A DNA stretch of 64,000 bases. Source: Emticicia agri. Its GTDB lineage: Bacteria > Bacteroidota > Bacteroidia > Cytophagales > Spirosomataceae. Within the stretch, counting starts at the first letter, position 1. Each line of letters begins with the position of its first letter. Of this stretch, positions 344 through 62,705 are shown one piece after another. The notes below the pieces were generated by a model. It was not told the origin of the DNA. It was given only the letters and a program-made list of their open reading frames with translations, and did no database searches. The stretch is from contig NZ_SEWF01000011.1 of the NCBI RefSeq assembly GCF_004168285.1, positions 62,001-126,000 of the forward strand, in the 5' to 3' direction. The position numbers and the translations under genes were made by a program.

Positions 344-381
344 TTATTAGCATCGTGCAAATTTCTACTATAGACAAATTG

Positions 382-431
382 AACGATAGATTATTTACCT
401 TACTTGAAGGCAAATAATCTATCGTTTTTTT
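382..431 (+). terminator. Intrinsic terminator after the sugar kinase gene
   Basis: A perfect 15-bp inverted repeat (AACGATAGATTATTT and its complement) encloses a ~15-nt loop and runs directly into a tract of eight T residues. It lies just downstream of the kinase stop codon and is the clearest terminator of this part of the window. Confidence 0.9.
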
Positions 432-566
432 CATCTCTTCTCGTCTAAAATCTTTGATCAAAAAGCAATTATTTATTGCAATGGAACTTTCATTAATAAT
501 ACTTCTGTATTACTTATGTATTTAAAAAATTTATGTAATTTGCAATACTTAAATAGATAGAATACT

Positions 567-749
567 ATGGCAAAAGTAGAAACACCTGCAGATAGATATG
601 TTCGTTTACTAAAGGAGAGGCATGGCCAGATTACCTCATCACCTGAAAAATCAAAACAGTTTTTACAAAGTATAGGCTTAACGGAAGTAGTAAAAAATAC
701 TGTTTCTATTAAAAGCCCTGCGAAACGCAGTCTAAGCAAGACTAATTAA
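567..749 (+). CDS. Small hypothetical protein upstream of an ART-like protein
   Basis: A 60-residue basic protein with no recognised family. It begins MAKVETPADRYVRLLKERHG and ends in a Lys/Ser-rich tail (SPAKRSLSKTN). It is predicted soluble, with no signal peptide or membrane segment. The stop codon lies 19 bp upstream of the start of the next gene on the same strand, so the two are very probably cotranscribed. A small protein directly upstream of an ADP-ribosyltransferase-like protein is the usual layout of a toxin-antitoxin pair, which suggests an antitoxin or partner role. This is inference from context only; no DNA-binding fold is evident. The start codon is an ATG preceded by an A+T-rich segment with a degenerate TAATTTG element about 30 bp upstream. 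Confidence 0.6.
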   Translation: MAKVETPADRYVRLLKERHGQITSSPEKSKQFLQSIGLTEVVKNTVSIKSPAKRSLSKTN

Positions 750-768
750 TTTATCACAATATAAACTA

Positions 769-1389
769 ATGTATTTTCATAAAACAAGTTTTGTTCTTGG
801 ATTTCATGGTTGTGATGAAAGTATCAGAGATGCTTTACTTAAAGGAGAAATAGCGCTACATTATAGTACGAATGAATGGGACTGGCTTGGGCATGGTATG
901 TATTTTTGGGAATCAAGCCCATTAAGAGCCTTGGAATACGCCATTGAATTAAAAAATAACCCTCATAGAACAGCCGGAAAAATAGAAAAGCCTTCTGTAA
1001 TTGGCGCAATAATAGATTTAGGAAATTGCTTTGACCTTCTACAACATGAAAATCTAAAAGTCCTTAAAGAGACTTATGATATACTTCAGTTAACCTACCA
1101 AAGTTCTGGCATACAACCGCCTAAAAATCGAATTAGTAAAGAAACCGGCGAACTTTTAATCAGGAAGCTGGATTGTCTGCTAATTAATGCCGTACATGAA
1201 TATAAAGAAAAACTGAACATAGACGAGCTTTATGATAGTGTGAGAGGTGTATTTTTTGAAGGTCCGGAACTATATCCAAACGCTGGTTTTAGAGAAAAAA
1301 ACCATGTACAGTTATGTGTTCGTAATCCAAATTGTATAAAAGGATATTTTTTGCCCAGAGAATTAGATACACGCTATCGAATACCTTAA
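769..1389 (+). CDS. Putative ADP-ribosyltransferase (ART/PARP-like) protein
   Basis: A 206-residue soluble protein. Three segments match the core of the ART/PARP fold in order and spacing. An N-terminal beta strand ends in FHGCD (His13 in the NAD-ribose-binding position). A WLGHGMYFWE motif (Tyr45) resembles the PARP G-x-G-x-Y-F loop. A C-terminal strand NHVQLCVRNPNCIKGYF aligns with the PARP segment that ends in an Ile-Lys-x-x-Tyr-like pattern; the catalytic Glu position falls on Gln181, with Glu176 nearby. If so, the triad would be H-Y-Q rather than H-Y-E, a variant found in mono-ART or inactive members. The product is probably a toxin or effector modifying a host target by NAD-dependent ADP-ribosylation; target unknown. 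It follows a 60-codon gene by 19 bp. No signal peptide. Family assignment is by motif only. Confidence 0.6.
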   Translation: MYFHKTSFVLGFHGCDESIRDALLKGEIALHYSTNEWDWLGHGMYFWESSPLRALEYAIELKNNPHRTAGKIEKPSVIGAIIDLGNCFDLLQHENLKVLKETYDILQLTYQSSGIQPPKNRISKETGELLIRKLDCLLINAVHEYKEKLNIDELYDSVRGVFFEGPELYPNAGFREKNHVQLCVRNPNCIKGYFLPRELDTRYRIP

Positions 1390-1593
1390 TTCAACAATAT
1401 CTTCTATTAAAAAAATCCTAAAAATCATCTGAATAACAAAAACTTCAATTCTTTTTACTACATTCGCAACAGAAAGAATAGTATGTTTGCATACAAATAA
1501 TGTATTCTTTTTAAAGAATTATTTTATAAACAAATAGCTGACTTTTGACCGAATATTAACTAAAATTCTGCCTTTTCTCATCAAAAACCATTT

Positions 1594-16678: not shown

Positions 16679-17121
16679 TTGATAGAGCTTAATAATGAGT
16701 CGTCTTGTAATAGACAGATAACTTATGAAAGATAAAATACTCACCAGTTAAGTTGGCTTCACTGGTTTTCTGATAAATCTGCTCAGATGTAACTCTCTTC
16801 AAAATAAATTAAATCTTAATGGATTATAACTACGATTTGATGCTTTAATAAGTTTTCTAAATCGCTTTTTGATTTATAATCATACTCATCCGCCTTAGAT
16901 GAAGTTACGTGTGTGTACCCCAAAAATTTATCCACATAAACTATTAGTTGGAATTCCTGTTAAAGAAATGCAAAAACATCAGAATGAAAAGCAGATGGAA
17001 GAGCTACTAAGAAAGACACGCTGCGTAATGATTTAATAACCGCAATTTGGGTACTTCCACTTGCTTCCCTTGACGTGGAGATTTTAAATTGGATACAATT
17101 TTCAAGAAAAAGATTTCAACA
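16679..17121 (+). other. Intergenic region before the NRPS-like gene, with a hairpin
   Basis: The 440-bp spacer has a hairpin at 16743-16766 (ACCAGT/ACTGGT) followed by TTTTC, similar in sequence to a second hairpin after the NRPS-like gene. It also holds a short open frame of 45 codons (16899-17036, starting MKLRVCTPKIYPHKLLVG) without recognised family; it could be a remnant or chance. A second small inverted repeat (TCCAC/GTGGA, about 17057-17080) lies shortly before the NRPS-like start and may belong to its leader. Confidence 0.4.
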
Positions 17122-19656
17122 ATGCAGTTAGATTTTCAAGGCCCATTAGACATTCAGTTCAGAAAATTTGAGGAGGCTTGGCTTGACATCCCCGTTTTTG
17201 AGCTTTTCACCAAAATAGTTGAAAGAAAGCCTGATAAAATAGCTTTAATCTGTGGGGAAAACCAACTAAGCTATAAGGAAGTTTATGAATGGGTACTGCT
17301 TATAGCAAATGAGCTTAAAATACAACATTCAAAACAAGAGCCAGTTGGTATTGCTTTACCTAATGACGTATTTTTCCCAATCTCTATGTTAGCTTCATTG
17401 GCAGCAGGCTGCCCTTATGTGCCTCTGGATATAGATTTACCTGTTTTGCGTAATCAACTTATTATAGAACAATCTGGTTTAAAGTCAATTATTACCTTCT
17501 CCGACTCTTATAAATTTGAGGGTATGGCTGAACTTATAAATCTTGATATACTATCCTCAGCAGAATGCCTTCAAAATGATTTTAATACTTTTCCTGAAGA
17601 TATAGCCTACATTATTTATACATCGGGTTCTACCGGCATACCCAAAGGTGTTTACCAAAATCAACGTAACTTATTACATGATGTAATGCAATATACCAAC
17701 TCTGTACATTTAAACGAAAACGACCGTTTAACACTACTGTATTCACCAAGTGTTGGGGGGGCTAATAGAGACATTTACGGAGCACTTTTAAATGGCGCAA
17801 CTTTGGTAATCAACAATCTTAAACTCAATAAATTATATGACCTAAGTAAATTTCTCAGAAAAGAGCGCATTACTATCTATCATTCAATACCCAATATTTT
17901 TAGAACTTTTCTTCTATTAAAACCAGATAAATCTGATTTGGAAACAGTAAGACTTATTTATCTGGCAGGAGACCGAATTTATAATACTGATGTTGATTTA
18001 TATAAATCTTTTTTTACTGACAATTGTCTGTTATATGTGGGTATTGGAGCTACAGAAATAGCCACCATATATCGGCAATGGTTTATTAATAAAAATACAC
18101 TTATTAATACTGAACTTATCCCATTAGGCTACGCTGTTGAAGATAGAGAAATGCAATTGCTTGATAGTGATCATAAACAGGTAGTTGACGACAAGGCAGG
18201 TGAAATTACCGTTTACAGTAAGTTTATTTCTTTAGGATACTGGAATGATTCCATACAAACAGAAAAGTCTTTTACCAATTGTGCTGGTGATTCAGCAATA
18301 AGGATTTATAAGACAGGTGATTTAGGGAGAATTAACAGAGATGGTCTTTTAGAATTTATAGGAAGAAAAGACAGCCAGGTGAAAATTAATGGGTATAGAG
18401 TCGAGTTAAATGAAATAGAAGGGCTATTAATGAATTATCCTTCAATAACACATTGCAGCGTGGTTTTATATACAACAGAGAAGCACAATGCAATATTTGC
18501 CTTTTACGTGAGCACAATTGAACTATTAGAAATAGTAGTAAAAAGCTGGCTTAAAGAACGTTTACCCGACTATATGATTCCTCAAAGGTGTATTCAAGTT
18601 GATGAAATACCTCTTTTACATAACTTTAAAAACGATAATAAATCATTAAGAGTCTTAGCTGAAAACTATATTGGCAATGTGCCAGAAACTGAAAAACAGC
18701 CAGAAGATTCTTTATTTACTATTCTTAGAGGAACATGGAGCCGATTCTTAGATAAAGAATCTTTTGATAGAAATATCAAATGGAAATATGCCGGAGGCGA
18801 CTCAGTAAATGCTGTTAATTTTTTAGTTCAACTGGAAGCAGATTTAGGCACTACGCTGCCTACCGATTGGATAGACGGTGAAATGTCTCCCAACGGAATT
18901 TATAATTACCTGAAAACATTAGATTTAACCAGAAAAATTAACGAGAAGAAAATAATTTATTTTTTCCCTTCTTTATCGGGTATGGAAGAAAATACCCGTC
19001 TATTTTTAAATAAACTATCTGCACTTGTCTCAGTCACAATAATCAATTACCCTAAATTCAGTAATACCCCATTAAAAGACAGAAATTTAAATTACATAAC
19101 AGCGTTCATAGAAAAGCAAATTCCTAATTATGGTGGTCCGAACACAGGCTTTATCAGTACCTGTTCAGGTGGCTCAATTATGCACCATTTTATTACAAGC
19201 AAACAGACTCAACACTATAGTTTCATCGGAATTATAGAAGGTCGGGCTCAGTACAAAGCTCCGCCATTGTATAAAGGTTTTTTTAAAAGAGTAAAACTTT
19301 TTTTAAAAAGAGAGAATATTATCAACGATATGATATTTGCCCTCTATACCCGCTCTGATTATTGTAAAAAAATAATCCACTACATGGAGAGAAAAAAATA
19401 CTATTCATTTAAAAATCGTTCAACTCTATTAAGTATATATCAAAACTTATGTCTTTCTTATTTTGATGGTGAAGCTGTATACTTTAACTGTGAGCAATCT
19501 TCCATAAATCCTGTGAGTGCTCAATGGGAGTTATATTATAAAAAAATCAGGCTGATTTCATTAACCGGGCATCATCAAGATATGTTAAATGAGTATAATG
19601 CTAAAATAGTAATAGATAAAATAGCAGAAGTTCTTACCCTCATGAAAGTAGAGTAA
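17122..19656 (+). CDS. Monomodular NRPS-like enzyme (adenylation-carrier-thioesterase)
   Basis: An 844-residue protein with three domains. The AMP-binding adenylation domain (residues ~15-510) shows YTSGSTGIPKG (from ~166), YKTGDLGR (TGD at ~398) and GRKDSQVKINGYRVE. A carrier domain (~535-615) has the 4'-phosphopantetheine site GGDS at Ser561. An alpha/beta-hydrolase thioesterase (~625-844) has a TCSGGS elbow (Ser682) and GHHQDML (His818). There is no condensation domain. At the position where amino-acid-activating domains carry the Asp that binds the amino group (FDxS), this protein has Gly212 (SVGGANRD), so the substrate is probably not an ordinary alpha-amino acid. No phosphopantetheinyl transferase or tailoring gene is adjacent. 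The frame is open to a TTG at 17089; the ATG at 17122 was preferred. Product unknown. Confidence 0.85.
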   Translation: MQLDFQGPLDIQFRKFEEAWLDIPVFELFTKIVERKPDKIALICGENQLSYKEVYEWVLLIANELKIQHSKQEPVGIALPNDVFFPISMLASLAAGCPYVPLDIDLPVLRNQLIIEQSGLKSIITFSDSYKFEGMAELINLDILSSAECLQNDFNTFPEDIAYIIYTSGSTGIPKGVYQNQRNLLHDVMQYTNSVHLNENDRLTLLYSPSVGGANRDIYGALLNGATLVINNLKLNKLYDLSKFLRKERITIYHSIPNIFRTFLLLKPDKSDLETVRLIYLAGDRIYNTDVDLYKSFFTDNCLLYVGIGATEIATIYRQWFINKNTLINTELIPLGYAVEDREMQLLDSDHKQVVDDKAGEITVYSKFISLGYWNDSIQTEKSFTNCAGDSAIRIYKTGDLGRINRDGLLEFIGRKDSQVKINGYRVELNEIEGLLMNYPSITHCSVVLYTTEKHNAIFAFYVSTIELLEIVVKSWLKERLPDYMIPQRCIQVDEIPLLHNFKNDNKSLRVLAENYIGNVPETEKQPEDSLFTILRGTWSRFLDKESFDRNIKWKYAGGDSVNAVNFLVQLEADLGTTLPTDWIDGEMSPNGIYNYLKTLDLTRKINEKKIIYFFPSLSGMEENTRLFLNKLSALVSVTIINYPKFSNTPLKDRNLNYITAFIEKQIPNYGGPNTGFISTCSGGSIMHHFITSKQTQHYSFIGIIEGRAQYKAPPLYKGFFKRVKLFLKRENIINDMIFALYTRSDYCKKIIHYMERKKYYSFKNRSTLLSIYQNLCLSYFDGEAVYFNCEQSSINPVSAQWELYYKKIRLISLTGHHQDMLNEYNAKIVIDKIAEVLTLMKVE

Positions 19657-40566: not shown

Positions 40567-41517
40567 ATGGACTTATTAGAAAAATATATAAATAGAAAAT
40601 TTGGTATCGACGAAAATAAGTTTTTGGAAGTTCTAATAAAAAGCCCGGGAGCCGAAGGCTATATTTTAGGCAACATTGGAGAAGAACTTTTTAAAGAATA
40701 TGCTAATTCAATAGGATATGAAGCTTTAAGAATTAAAGAGAAACCAGAAGGCGGCAATAATGCTAAAAGTGTAGATGCTAAAGGAGATTTTTACATTAGA
40801 AAAATTGGTAATACAAAAGACGAATGGCTCGTTGTTGAATGTAAAGGAGTAAAATCTAATGCTGAAAAACGTTGTGGACTTACTAATCCAACTTCTTGTT
40901 TGACTTTATTGTACAAACATTCAGTTGAAAGAGCAAAACATGTTGAAAGTATCTACAAGTCAGGAAATTTAGCTTATTTACATGCAAAGAAACAATGGGA
41001 AGAGAAAAATAATGGAAAGTTTTTCCCATCATTTGGTTGGAGCAAAACTAACCCTGGTGCTGGCGTACCTGATTTAACAGGGCTTTGGCTAAGCAAAGTT
41101 GAAATTAAGGAATGGTTAGATACTTTTAAGGCAAGTGATTTTGATGAAAACGCCTATTGGGATTTGACAGCACCAATCAGACTTTTACAAACACATATGC
41201 CCTCAACAAGAATTGATATAGAAACTAATATAAAAAGTACAGGACCTTTAGTTTCTGAATTCAATATTTTATGTGTAGATCTATTTCTAAAAACAGGCAA
41301 ACACGAATTTGTATTTGTGAATAGTACAAATCTAAACCATCAAGGCAAATCACCCAATCATTTACAACAGAATTACACAATTGATATTTTGACGGCAAAA
41401 GATGGATATAAACGCCACAATTTATTAAAACCTTGGTATAATGACCTCAATTTATGTATTGAAGAGACAATGCCTAAATACCGAAAATTGGATGAAAGTC
41501 AATTAGATAGAAGATAA
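40567..41517 (+). CDS. Probable type II restriction endonuclease (PD-(D/E)xK)
   Basis: A 316-residue protein with a PD-(D/E)xK-like catalytic core: Asp74 in KGDFYI, then Glu91 and Lys93 in WLVVECKGV, with the expected ~17-residue spacing. The sequence around it (GNIGEELFKEYANSIGYEAL) is a typical lead helix for restriction nucleases. It lies 3 bp after the C gene and 49 bp before the methylase, so the order is C-R-M. The recognition site cannot be told. The rest of the protein has no family assignment, so it is called an endonuclease from motif plus context. Confidence 0.75.
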   Translation: MDLLEKYINRKFGIDENKFLEVLIKSPGAEGYILGNIGEELFKEYANSIGYEALRIKEKPEGGNNAKSVDAKGDFYIRKIGNTKDEWLVVECKGVKSNAEKRCGLTNPTSCLTLLYKHSVERAKHVESIYKSGNLAYLHAKKQWEEKNNGKFFPSFGWSKTNPGAGVPDLTGLWLSKVEIKEWLDTFKASDFDENAYWDLTAPIRLLQTHMPSTRIDIETNIKSTGPLVSEFNILCVDLFLKTGKHEFVFVNSTNLNHQGKSPNHLQQNYTIDILTAKDGYKRHNLLKPWYNDLNLCIEETMPKYRKLDESQLDRR

Positions 41518-41528
41518 TTTGCAATTTA

Positions 41529-41560
41529 CACATTTGTGGTGTATTTTTGTCACAAATGTG
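41529..41560. promoter_or_regulatory. 10-bp inverted repeat between nuclease and methylase genes
   Basis: CACATTTGTG (41529-41538) and CACAAATGTG (41551-41560) form a perfect 10-bp inverted repeat with a 12-bp spacer, seven bases upstream of the methylase ATG. Each half is itself nearly palindromic (CACAnnTGTG). It may be the operator of a methylase promoter inside the cassette, or an mRNA hairpin that limits translation of the methylase. Confidence 0.45.
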
Positions 41561-41566
41561 CAAAGT

Positions 41567-43552
41567 ATGAATTTATTATTTGAACTACCACTTGCCAAAG
41601 AAGATAATCTACTAAAAAAATTTGAAGAAATCCATGATTATATCTACGCAAATGATGGATTATCGCCACAGCAAACATTGGAGGAATTTGTCAAAATTTT
41701 GTTTATCAAAATTTGTGATGAGAATGAAAACCTAAATCAGTTTAAAATTTCTTCGGAGGACTGGAACGAATTGAAATCTGGTAAAGTAAGCCAATCAATT
41801 GTAGAACGCATTTCAATTATTTTTGAACAGACTAAGCGAGTCTATAAAGATATTTTTGATTCGGACGACCGAATTAGAATTAGCCCTATTGCTTTAGGTT
41901 TTACAATAAATAAATTACAAGGAATTTCTTTAATAAATTCTTCTCAAGATGCAAAGGGTTTAGCATTTCAAAAATTCTTATCACATCACGAAAAAGACGG
42001 ACGAGGACAATTTTTTACACCTGAACCTGTAATTGATTTTTGTGTGGCAATGATGCAGCCAAAGCCAAATGAAGCAGTCATTGACCCAGCATGCGGGAGT
42101 GGTGGTTTTTTAATGTCAGTTTTAAAGTATTTACGAAGTAATAACGCTGAACTGGATAGTAGCAAAATTGTATCTAAAAACCTATTTGGCTTGGATATAA
42201 ATAAAAGTATTGCCCGAATTGCAAAAATGAAATTACTTTTGGAAGCAAATGGAAAAACAAACATTCTTTGTATCAATTCATTAGAGGATTTAGACAGTTT
42301 GAAACTTACTTTATCTCATTCACAAGGCTTTGATTTGGTTTTGGCAAATCCTCCATTTGGGGCAAAAATTACAAATCTATTAACCCTCTCGAAATTTGAT
42401 TTGGGTCATAAATGGACTTCTTACGAAGGGGAATATAGTAAAACAAAATCTGTTTATCCAAACCAAAATGCCGAAGTTTTGTTTATTGAACGTTGCTTAC
42501 AACTTCTAAAAGAAGGGGGTAGAATGGCAATTGTTTTGCCAAATGGTAATTTTGAAAACCCATCATTAGAGTATTTACGCTATTATATAAAGATAAAAGC
42601 AAAAATTTTAGCTATTATTAATTTACCACAAGAAACTTTTATTCCTTTTGGAACAGGAGTAAAAACGTCAATTTTATTTTTAGAAAAAGATACTCCAAAT
42701 AAGTTTAGAAAGTATCCCATATTCTTTGGAAGAGTTACAAAATTGGGTTACCAAGGTAACAAAAATGGGACACCACAGTATAAAAAAGATAAATATGGAC
42801 AAGTCATAAAAGATAATTTAGGGCAGCCGATTTTAGACGAAGATTTTAGTTTAATTGTTGATGCTTACAAAAAATTTCAAAGTGGGGAAGAAATTGAAAA
42901 GGATAATTCTTTTTCAATTAACTTCAGCGAATTAAATGGAAGATTTGACTATGATTTCTATTCGCCAGAAAATAGGAGAATGTTTAATAAGTTACATACA
43001 GGAAAAAGTGTTCGTTTAGGGGACATTTGCGAAATTATAAAAGTAAAAAGCAAAAAATTAAAAGACCAAAATCAGACTGTTGAATATGTTGAGCTTTCGG
43101 ATATAAACACCCATTCTTATGAAATAATAAACTCAACAACTTATCAAGTTCACGAGTTACCCAGTAGAGCAAGTTATGAAATTGAAAATGGAGATATAAT
43201 TACTGCAATTGCAGGAAATTCAGTAGGTACAAGAAAACACGCTACAGCATTAGTAAATAAAGACTTTGAAGGTAGTATTTGTACAAATGGTTTTAGAGTA
43301 TTAAGAAATTTTAGAATAGATACTTATTATTTGCTTTACTTTTTAAAATCGGAAGCATTCTTAAAACAAATGTTCATGTATAGGACAGGTGCAGCCATTC
43401 CAAACGTTTCTGATTCAGACCTAGCAAATACATTAATTCATTTACCTAATGATAAGATAATAGAAGAAGTTAGTTCAAAAATGAAACGAGCGTTTGAACT
43501 TCGACAAGAATCAAGAAACCAAATCGAAAGTATTAGCCTTAAACTTGCTTAA
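41567..43552 (+). CDS. N6-adenine DNA methyltransferase fused to a specificity domain
   Basis: A 661-residue protein. Residues ~1-100 are HsdM-like N-terminal helices. A gamma-class methylase core follows, with GRGQFFTPEPVIDF, motif I DPACGSGGF (residues 173-181) and motif IV NPPF (261-264). The C-terminal ~200 residues (from ~470) form one HsdS-type target-recognition domain: VRLGDICEIIKV, then a central helix-rich part ending with KMKRAFELRQES. So modification and specificity sit in one chain with a single TRD, as in type II systems derived from type I. No nuclease domain is fused; that function is the preceding gene. A TTG 16 codons upstream is open, but the ATG at 41567 is preferred, since the extension is not family-like. 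Confidence 0.9.
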   Translation: MNLLFELPLAKEDNLLKKFEEIHDYIYANDGLSPQQTLEEFVKILFIKICDENENLNQFKISSEDWNELKSGKVSQSIVERISIIFEQTKRVYKDIFDSDDRIRISPIALGFTINKLQGISLINSSQDAKGLAFQKFLSHHEKDGRGQFFTPEPVIDFCVAMMQPKPNEAVIDPACGSGGFLMSVLKYLRSNNAELDSSKIVSKNLFGLDINKSIARIAKMKLLLEANGKTNILCINSLEDLDSLKLTLSHSQGFDLVLANPPFGAKITNLLTLSKFDLGHKWTSYEGEYSKTKSVYPNQNAEVLFIERCLQLLKEGGRMAIVLPNGNFENPSLEYLRYYIKIKAKILAIINLPQETFIPFGTGVKTSILFLEKDTPNKFRKYPIFFGRVTKLGYQGNKNGTPQYKKDKYGQVIKDNLGQPILDEDFSLIVDAYKKFQSGEEIEKDNSFSINFSELNGRFDYDFYSPENRRMFNKLHTGKSVRLGDICEIIKVKSKKLKDQNQTVEYVELSDINTHSYEIINSTTYQVHELPSRASYEIENGDIITAIAGNSVGTRKHATALVNKDFEGSICTNGFRVLRNFRIDTYYLLYFLKSEAFLKQMFMYRTGAAIPNVSDSDLANTLIHLPNDKIIEEVSSKMKRAFELRQESRNQIESISLKLA

Positions 43553-48615: not shown

Positions 48616-49210
48616 ATGCAATATCAGATAAACCATATCTATCATCTATACAACCGAGGAAATAACCGACAAAAGCTGTTTTTTTACAAGAGATAATTAT
48701 TTATTCTTTTTAGCAAAGATTCGGAAATTCCTACTGCCGCATTGTGATATTTTATCCTATTGCTTAATGCCCAATCATTTCCATTTTAAAATACGTGCTA
48801 ATGAAAATTCAATAAAAACTATTACAATAAAAGACGAGGAAAGAAATGTGATTTCAGAAGCATTACGCAATCTATTAAGCAGTTATTCATTGGCTATTAA
48901 TAAACAGGAAAGACGTACAGGGTCTTTATTTACCCAAAATACAAAGGTAAAAGATTTGAACCCTGCTCCTGTAGATTGGGAGTATCCAATAACTTGTTTT
49001 CACTATATTCACCAAAATCCTTATGTAGCTTTGTTGGTAGAAAAAATAGACGATTGGGAGTTCTCGTCTTTTAGAGATTATCATCAATTAAGAAATGGGA
49101 CATTATGCAACCAAATACTGGCAAAAGAGGTTCTAAAAATAGATTTTGGTAATTTTTATGAAGAATCATATAAAAGCATAAATCCTGATAAGATTTTAAA
49201 AATCTGGTGA
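48616..49210 (+). pseudogene. REP-associated tyrosine transposase (RAYT), frameshifted
   Basis: The ORF starts MQYQINHIYHLYNRGNNRQK, a typical RAYT N-terminus, and after 26 codons meets a stop following a run of seven T (48679-48685). Skipping one T restores the frame: LFFTRDNYLFFLAKIRKFL, then CLMPNHFHFKIR with the HUH motif, SSYSLAINKQERRTGSLF, and the Tyr region in CFHYIHQNPY that holds the catalytic tyrosine. The reconstructed product (~197 residues) is full-length. So the element is either recently inactivated by a homopolymer insertion or read by slippage at the T run. It is flanked by three copies of one REP-like motif. Confidence 0.88.
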
Positions 49211-62483: not shown

Positions 62484-62621
62484 GACCTAAAGCGAGTGTT
62501 AAGTACTATATTACAATCGCAGTTACTAACACCACTACTAACAAACCCACCACCCCAACAAAACAAAAAACCGTAACTAACTGAAAATCAATTAATTACG
62601 GTCATTTATTTGTTCACTGCG

Positions 62622-62705
62622 TACCCAGAGCCGGAGTCGAACCGGCATGCCCGTGAAGGCATTGGTGTTTGAGACCAACGCGTCTACCGATTCCGCCATC
62701 TGGGC
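62622..62705 (-). tRNA. tRNA-Leu (anticodon CAA)
   Basis: Read on the minus strand, an 84-nt sequence folds as a tRNA with a long variable arm. The acceptor GCCCAGA pairs with TCTGGGT; the D-arm follows (GGCGGAATCGGTAGACGC); the anticodon stem TTGGT/ACCAA encloses loop CTCAAAC, with anticodon CAA (UUG codons); then the variable arm and T-arm (GGTTCGACTCC). The long variable arm is typical of Leu. The 3' CCA is not encoded. Confidence 0.95.

Follow-up and report, generated by a model that had tools for sequence, protein, structure and literature searches.

The gene pair at the locus

In a 64,000-nucleotide stretch of the Emticicia agri genome (contig NZ_SEWF01000011.1, positions 62,001 to 126,000), which we call the window throughout, two adjacent genes encode a small basic protein and a protein resembling ADP-ribosyltransferases (ARTs). 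A first reading of this DNA from its letters (hereafter the sequence-only reading) had placed both open reading frames (ORFs) here, and both are present, each with an ATG start:

567..749, plus strand: gene for a small basic protein, putative antitoxin, 60 codons and 60 amino acids (from the ORF list and profile matches)
769..1389, plus strand: gene for a predicted ART-fold enzyme, putative toxin, 206 codons and 206 amino acids (from the ORF, its motifs and its predicted fold)

The distance from the stop of the small gene to the ATG of the ART gene is 19 nt, as had been noted, and the basic character ascribed to the small product agrees with a computed isoelectric point of 10.3. The three motifs singled out in the ART protein follow each other in the order described: FHGCD (residues 12-16), WLGHGMYFWE (39-48) and NHVQLCVRNPNCIKGYF (178-194). 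Its start at 769 is backed by a Met-Tyr start in at least 90% of the family (alignment A1, below), and the gene is the single family match in its own 6.65-Mb genome.

A family of ART-like proteins with an invariant His-Tyr-Gln triad

Bacteria, plasmids and viral contigs carry relatives of the ART protein, as does an archaeal bin. We collected 80 genome-contig loci (the best 80 of 81), 66 plasmid records and 26 viral contigs, with a few repeats among the three sets; loci are numbered with an L and genomes with a G. Alignment A1 holds 63 intact sequences, namely the window protein and those from 62 of the 80 genome-contig loci, the other 18 having been left out for their length, for a broken frame or by hand (L067, L078, L083, L085). 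The residues of the proposed triad, His13 (805-807), Tyr45 (901-903) and Gln181 (1309-1311), stand where the sequence-only reading had them, and all three are invariant (63/63), as are W39, L40, G41, G43, F46, W47, E48, R53, A54, G79, N120, D135, C136, F162, E164, H179 and N186. A looser set of 73 loci, left from 89 after removal of the 16 with ORFs outside 180-245 amino acids, keeps His and Tyr in 72 and Gln in 71; the misses are L083 (all three residues) and L078 (Gln), both frame-broken. Gln181 is a property of the whole family and not a peculiarity of the window protein. A class of ARTs with the triad H-Y-[E,D,Q] has already been published (PMC9503650, PMC11618068).

Modelling the structure of the 206-residue product had been suggested as a check, and the prediction does have the ART fold. 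When it is compared with known structures by VIA-align, treating rows within 1 Z as tied, the RES complexes 6fkg and 8qnq are among the top three rows and PARPs follow at Z 7.1. Model residues 4..199 align to residues 853..1006 of PARP1, and from the offsets at the ends of these ranges H13 would fall at PARP1 862 and Q181 at 988. PARP-type ARTs (PARP1, PARP2, tankyrase) are among the closest known systems. Glu988 of PARP1 corresponds to Gln181 here; the window protein also differs from these ARTs in that it is bacterial, small, free-standing and linked to a partner.

Domain libraries say little about this family. Neither window protein matches any family in Pfam or NCBIfam, the ART protein having no Pfam match even at E 10. 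Over the 63 members at E 0.01, the only Pfam matches are to PARP, Flu_M1 and ART-PolyVal, one member each, and the RES profile is not among them. Searches of the sequences in the PDB with the window protein alone and with the family profile gave chance matches only. The window protein does match PHROG 14664 over residues 8-197 (E 8.6e-24), a group with no function recorded, to which a predicted fold, a partner gene and a probable role can now be attached. Taken together, the lack of Pfam and NCBIfam matches, the function-less PHROG and the many loci suggest that a sizeable class of probable ART toxins with a defined partner is unannotated in these libraries. The family may already be listed under another name, such as the p0068-like family of PMC9503650. 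By predicted fold and triad, the window protein belongs with the H-Y-[E,D,Q] class, for which NAD+-dependent transfer would be the predicted activity.

A small gene accompanies the ART gene

The sequence-only reading had asked whether homologues keep the small upstream gene, and they nearly always do, the exceptions being L085 and L133. At almost all homologous loci, only a few nucleotides separate the end of a small ORF from the ART start: the median gap is 8 nt, and it lies between -30 and +40 in 69 of the 72 loci measured, a count that omits loci without a small ORF as well as L049, L076, L077 and L079. The small ORFs share a motif, roughly (S/T)KEEAxxxLxxAGIxxxxGxxxxxYxxL. Alignment A2 omits 8 of the 80 loci (L014, L067, L083, L085, L049, L077, L079, L069). 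In the small protein of the window, the core SSPEKSKQFLQSIGL is the counterpart of the family's (S/T)KEEAxxFLxxAGI, and the usual G...Y tail is not recognisable at its C-terminus.

To read the pairing fairly, the training of each profile has to be kept in mind. Our broad small-gene profile was trained without L001 to L006, L001 being the same place as the window, L005 the same place as training locus L081, and L006 90% identical to training copy L068. Most of its 80 upstream matches were training sequences, and they are therefore only descriptive. The real tests of pairing are therefore L002 to L004, the viral set without L130 and repeats, and a set of nine further loci. With the broad profile, the small gene is picked up next to the ART gene in L002, L003 and L004 (E 1.5e-8 to 3.4e-5), at 33-45% identity to the nearest training copy. 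Across the 26 viral contigs (3,440 ORFs), it finds the gene directly upstream in 25, with 24 matches at E 0.005 or better and a weak one in L122 (0.34); in L133 the candidate (E 0.041) is immediately downstream of the ART gene. Apart from these, the 26 contigs give no match at E 1 or better. The count becomes 22 of 23 once L130 (the same as training locus L063) is set aside together with two repeats, L121 and L135. A second profile, built exclusively from 24 viral-contig copies, was run on a varied choice of eight from the 66 plasmid records and on Synechococcus phage S-B28. It picks out a small ORF directly upstream in 9/9 loci, at 29-53% identity to the nearest training copy, and has no other match at E 1. 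The partner is thus conserved with the ART gene over distant hosts and mobile elements, adjacent to it, in the same direction and with the small gene first.

The same viral-only profile ranks 567-749 first among the 950 ORFs of the window (E 8.2e-4, the next at 3.0). A profile with partly hand-picked training also ranks it first of the 950, at E 6.6e-6 (next 1.3); since some of those training sequences were picked for their likeness, the viral-only value is the fair one. The small protein of the window has at best 39% identity to any training copy. Several observations weigh on the other side. The broad profile is weak on the window gene, with E 0.33 among 14,360 ORFs and 0.022 among the 950 of the window, and at E 0.01 it has no match in three places: the window with L001, L014 (at a contig end) and L085. 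Eleven of its matches were moreover flagged as not directly upstream. Three of these (L004, L005, L006) are reverse-oriented loci and in fact upstream, and three more (L067, L079, L083) are upstream with a miscalled ART start, a broken gene or a longer gap; the remaining five (L015, L016, L032, L077, L086) are other or extra small ORFs. On the viral-only result, we consider the small gene of the window a divergent member of the family; its C-terminal motif is unrecognisable.

That the small gene is selected as a protein is supported by the pooled proportions of nonsynonymous and synonymous differences in 15 close pairs, chosen by hand and including one identical pair: pN is 0.089, far under a pS of 0.520. 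Together with the profile tests, this rules out a chance or non-coding ORF. Pfam searches over 73 small proteins gave scattered weak matches, at most five members for any one family. Against the PDB, the small-protein profile hit mostly helical proteins, designed ones first, which we read as helix composition. A lone-chain model of the small window protein is too poor to serve as evidence (predicted local distance difference test score 59, residues 45-60 under 50); its helices, of low confidence, span residues 7-22, 26-35 and 39-46.

Small genes also occur outside the simple pair. Extra copies resembling spare antitoxins stand before the ART gene in L015 (4414-4962), L016 (4386-4965) and L086 (4552-4985) and after it in L032 (5703-5888), and the stretches read in L092 (small gene at 1498-1671) and L093 (1474-1611) have no ART gene.

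Distribution, loss and gain

The family is sporadic and mobile. It occurs in six of 395 genomes of the phylum and in one of 11 of the genus; 35 of the 66 plasmid records are typed conjugative. Small-gene matches (with training rows that include the window) were found in eight of the 395 genomes, including all six with an ART gene, although in G099 the reported match is on a different contig from the ART gene; that of G148 lies inside a 275-residue frame and is probably due to chance.

We judged breakage in 106 loci (80 genome-contig and 26 viral), of which 104 are distinct by their core stretch. The ART gene is intact in 89, broken in 16 and cut by a contig end in one. Fifteen of the 16 broken loci retain a small ORF of at least 50 amino acids, and L084 retains 36. 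Among the 89 with an intact ART gene, L014 cannot be judged, L085 has no recognisable small gene and L133 has it downstream. By our own arithmetic, if breakage depended on length alone, four or five loci should have a broken small gene beside an intact ART gene, and the sole candidate observed is L085. As frameshifts in metagenome bins may be errors, we take this pattern as support and not as proof.

Within the genus, the module sits in a segment that two close relatives lack, next to a hairpin:

344..1404, no strand: module-bearing segment without counterpart in two close relatives (blastn and comparison by eye)
382..426, no strand: perfect 15-bp inverted repeat (382-396 / 412-426) followed by T, a terminator-like hairpin (read from the sequence)

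In blastn searches with positions 1-1800, flanks in the same-genus loci L099 and L101 match up to 334 and from 1405, and between these flanks the relatives G396 and G397 have 106 nt and 92 nt, respectively, compared with 1,070 nt in the window. Read directly, the hairpin lies 3' of the upstream gene, within the missing segment; compared by eye, the relatives have a different hairpin-like stretch at that place. Either the module was gained recently in the genus or it was lost in these relatives. The other seven genus loci have no upstream match and are hence uninformative on the site. G395 has unrelated DNA upstream at the site (L100, reverse complement 1-1128), with an unrelated gene where the window has the module; from its HEFGH motif we presume it to encode a membrane peptidase-like protein. 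Because G395 carries an unrelated gene there, the site may be a recurrent insertion point.

Other loci carry the family in company. Four ART loci (L017, L023, L030, L031), each with a small gene upstream, are on four contigs of a single assembly whose title gives it as a metagenome bin of Bacteroides fragilis, and several Chitinophaga and Mucilaginibacter assemblies have two ART loci each. Genes annotated as toxins (AbiEii-type, HipA, RelE/ParE) occur no more than a few kb from the plasmid copies L143, L145 and L087, and L146 (1-1864), on a Rhizobium gallicum plasmid, is near genes for a multiubiquitin-domain protein and a ThiF-family adenylyltransferase.

Relation to CmdTAC

The PADLOC profile PD-T4-9_A (PDLC04069), which we infer to represent the toxin CmdT, matches every one of the 63 A1 sequences with an E of at most 0.01 (best 2.3e-10), in the window protein over residues 9-57 only (E 1.9e-4). 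A six-frame search of the phylum with this profile at E 0.001 returned six matches, the window genome not among them. Three full-length matches in the phylum directly adjoin SecB genes (PF02556, E 3.1e-9 to 6.7e-9). In these Bacteroidota loci (L136 1483-2734, L137 1495-2724, L138 795-2067) the order is small gene, SecB, ART, different from the toxin-antitoxin-chaperone order described for E. coli.

With CmdTAC, the window pair shares an ART toxin of similar size and the HY-[E,D,Q] triad, the form taken by the CmdT logo in PMC11618068. In the three SecB-linked proteins, the Gln181 column holds Gln in L136 and L137 and Ile in the third, Tyr is common to all and His is found in one only; WLGxGxYFW and IQIC motifs are common to two of the three. 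From this comparison of columns, we take the triad to be genuine and its class to be one already known; the kinship to CmdT is distant. CmdTAC differs from the window pair in several ways: here there are two genes, with the small partner first and no SecB chaperone found, and the ART family has a segment of its own, with invariant N120, D135 and C136 and near-invariant R132 and L134.

The chaperone itself was looked for in three ways. A search that was positive for SecB in four of 14 control genomes gave no SecB-family gene in the genome of the window, which is 99.9% complete. In the ART loci, a profile of three sequences, with a leave-one-out recall of E 9.4e-13 or better, picks out no CmdC-like ORF among 17,800 (best E 0.28, L025). 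Finally, SecB is found in one of the 26 viral records, at 86.5 kb versus an ART gene near 57 kb, more than 24 kb apart. Because this test for a linked SecB-like chaperone CmdC was negative, we dropped the idea of filing the pair as CmdTAC. Our small-gene profiles have no significant match to the putative antitoxins of the three SecB-linked loci (best E 0.15, L136), the comparison that bears on likeness to CmdA, an antitoxin with a chaperone-addiction tail; CmdTAC antitoxins are themselves highly variable.

Interpretation

We think it probable that the pair is a mobile, chaperone-free toxin-antitoxin module, whose ART is distantly related to the mRNA-modifying CmdT. Toxin-antitoxin is the best reading of the pattern of pairing and loss, with toxicity and neutralisation as what it would predict. 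The sequence-only reading, which had offered a toxin-antitoxin or phage-defence role, is in part supported: neither of the outcomes that it had named as refuting, a structure without the ART fold or homologues never accompanied by the small gene, came out, and the role is a putative one. The ART fold and the triad class were already known, and the link to CmdT rests on sequence likeness; the two-gene arrangement of such an ART with this small family and no chaperone was not found among the titles and openings of abstracts listed, which covered part of the search results.

The mechanism that we infer would run as follows. The product of about 60 amino acids would be made first, from what is presumably a shared transcript, and as a mostly helical, partly disordered antitoxin it would bind and block the ART. 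It may also help the ART to fold, because CmdT alone did not accumulate and needed CmdA (PMC11618068). In the enzyme, His13 and Tyr45 would hold NAD+, with Gln181 at the place of the PARP Glu. Once the small protein was gone, for example because phage infection led to its degradation or because the element had been lost, the freed ART would mono-ADP-ribosylate an essential target and growth would stop. The target would most likely be RNA, a proposal that follows from the kinship with CmdT and that we hold at somewhat below an even chance. The mobile and sporadic distribution and the remote kinship to the CmdTAC toxin make a role in phage defence plausible. Among known defence systems, DarTG likewise joins an ART toxin to a partner gene and acts against phages, whereas its DarG is a macrodomain hydrolase, and a partner of about 60 residues is too small for a macrodomain.

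More speculatively, the pair could be a minimal relative of CmdT immunity, in which the protein of about 60 residues would alone do the work of CmdA and SecB, restraining an RNA-targeting ART and sensing infection. Its variable N-terminal part would be tuned to triggers and its conserved AGI...G...Y part would plug the enzyme. We consider this possible but doubtful; if true, CmdTAC could have arisen from two-gene modules of this kind. Should the pair be a toxin-antitoxin module in the first place, it would be a compact system of two proteins for studying target choice by an ART of the Gln class, restraint of that ART by a protein of 60 residues, and whether ADP-ribosylation of mRNA extends past CmdTAC.

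The main rival to RNA as the target is NAD+ itself. The ART could be an NAD+-destroying toxin in the manner of the RES-domain proteins MbcT and NatT (6fkg, 8qnq), acting as a hydrolase or a phosphorylase; those toxins have a similar ART-like fold and likewise form toxin-antitoxin pairs. The small protein would neutralise the ART and nothing would be ADP-ribosylated. RES-domain toxins belong to a different active-site class from the window protein. Their place in the structural comparison is one of tied rows with PARPs following, and the profiles point to the CmdTAC toxin in all 63 members and to PARP in one, RES being in neither listing, nor is it matched by the window protein at E 10. RES systems also use a helix-turn-helix antitoxin (PMC9503650), in contrast to the 60-residue motif protein here. 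We rate this reading as rather unlikely.

Somewhat weaker is the view of the small protein as a required folding partner, activator or sensor, which would make the pair a two-part effector switched on by infection. Near-invariant pairing would suit any obligate partner, and besides the need of CmdT for CmdA, the two together were toxic without the chaperone (PMC11618068). The broken ART genes beside retained small genes (15/16), the extra small genes of L015, L016, L032 and L086 and the ART-less ones of L092 and L093 suit an antidote better than an activator, making this view unlikely.

Slightly less persuasive still is the view that the pair serves phages and plasmids as an anti-defence or host-takeover ART with a small co-factor. 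The 26 viral contigs and 66 plasmid records would fit, and ARTs are common phage weapons (PMC9503650), AcrIF11 being an ART encoded by phage and plasmid. Yet only two of 50,697 phage records match, both from phage S-B28, whose ART gene is shortened; copies on chromosomes and plasmids are numerous, and the viral contigs, from IMG/VR, may be prophages. This role appears improbable.

Glu is needed for poly-ADP-ribosylation by PARP1, and its replacement by Gln could mean a dead enzyme, a pseudo-ART with a binding role. We consider this very unlikely, given that His, Tyr and Gln are all invariant in 63/63 and that some members of the H-Y-[E,D,Q] class are active, among them CmdT, whose Y41A form is inactive. 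Least probable of all is a CmdTAC-type system with its chaperone encoded elsewhere, for which the PD-T4-9_A matches and the putative antitoxin of L136 (the best broad-profile match among 130 ORFs, at its non-significant E 0.15) could be invoked, and against which stand the failure to find a SecB-family gene in the 99.9%-complete genome or a CmdC-like ORF in the ART loci and the remoteness of SecB in the one viral record that has it.

Surroundings of the pair in the window

Upstream of the module lies the end of a gene at 38-343, which we take to be a sugar kinase gene and which has no match in a Pfam scan; downstream is a penicillin acylase gene (Pfam E 5.8e-217). Rfam and tRNA scans of the window gave nothing at the module and one tRNA-Leu elsewhere (62621-62705), and none of the proteins of the window that were scanned (about a dozen ORFs) was recognised as a defence protein. 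Foreign base composition was rejected as a clue: the guanine-cytosine (GC) content of the ART gene is 0.349, yet 23% of the 621-bp stretches of the window are equally low or lower. Elsewhere, the genes at 40567-43552 and 48767-49210 have a low GC content (0.31-0.32, versus 0.38 for the window) and are possibly foreign, the latter having no Pfam match at E 0.001, and a protein with AMP-binding and carrier-protein domains is encoded at 17089-19656, also at low GC (0.33).
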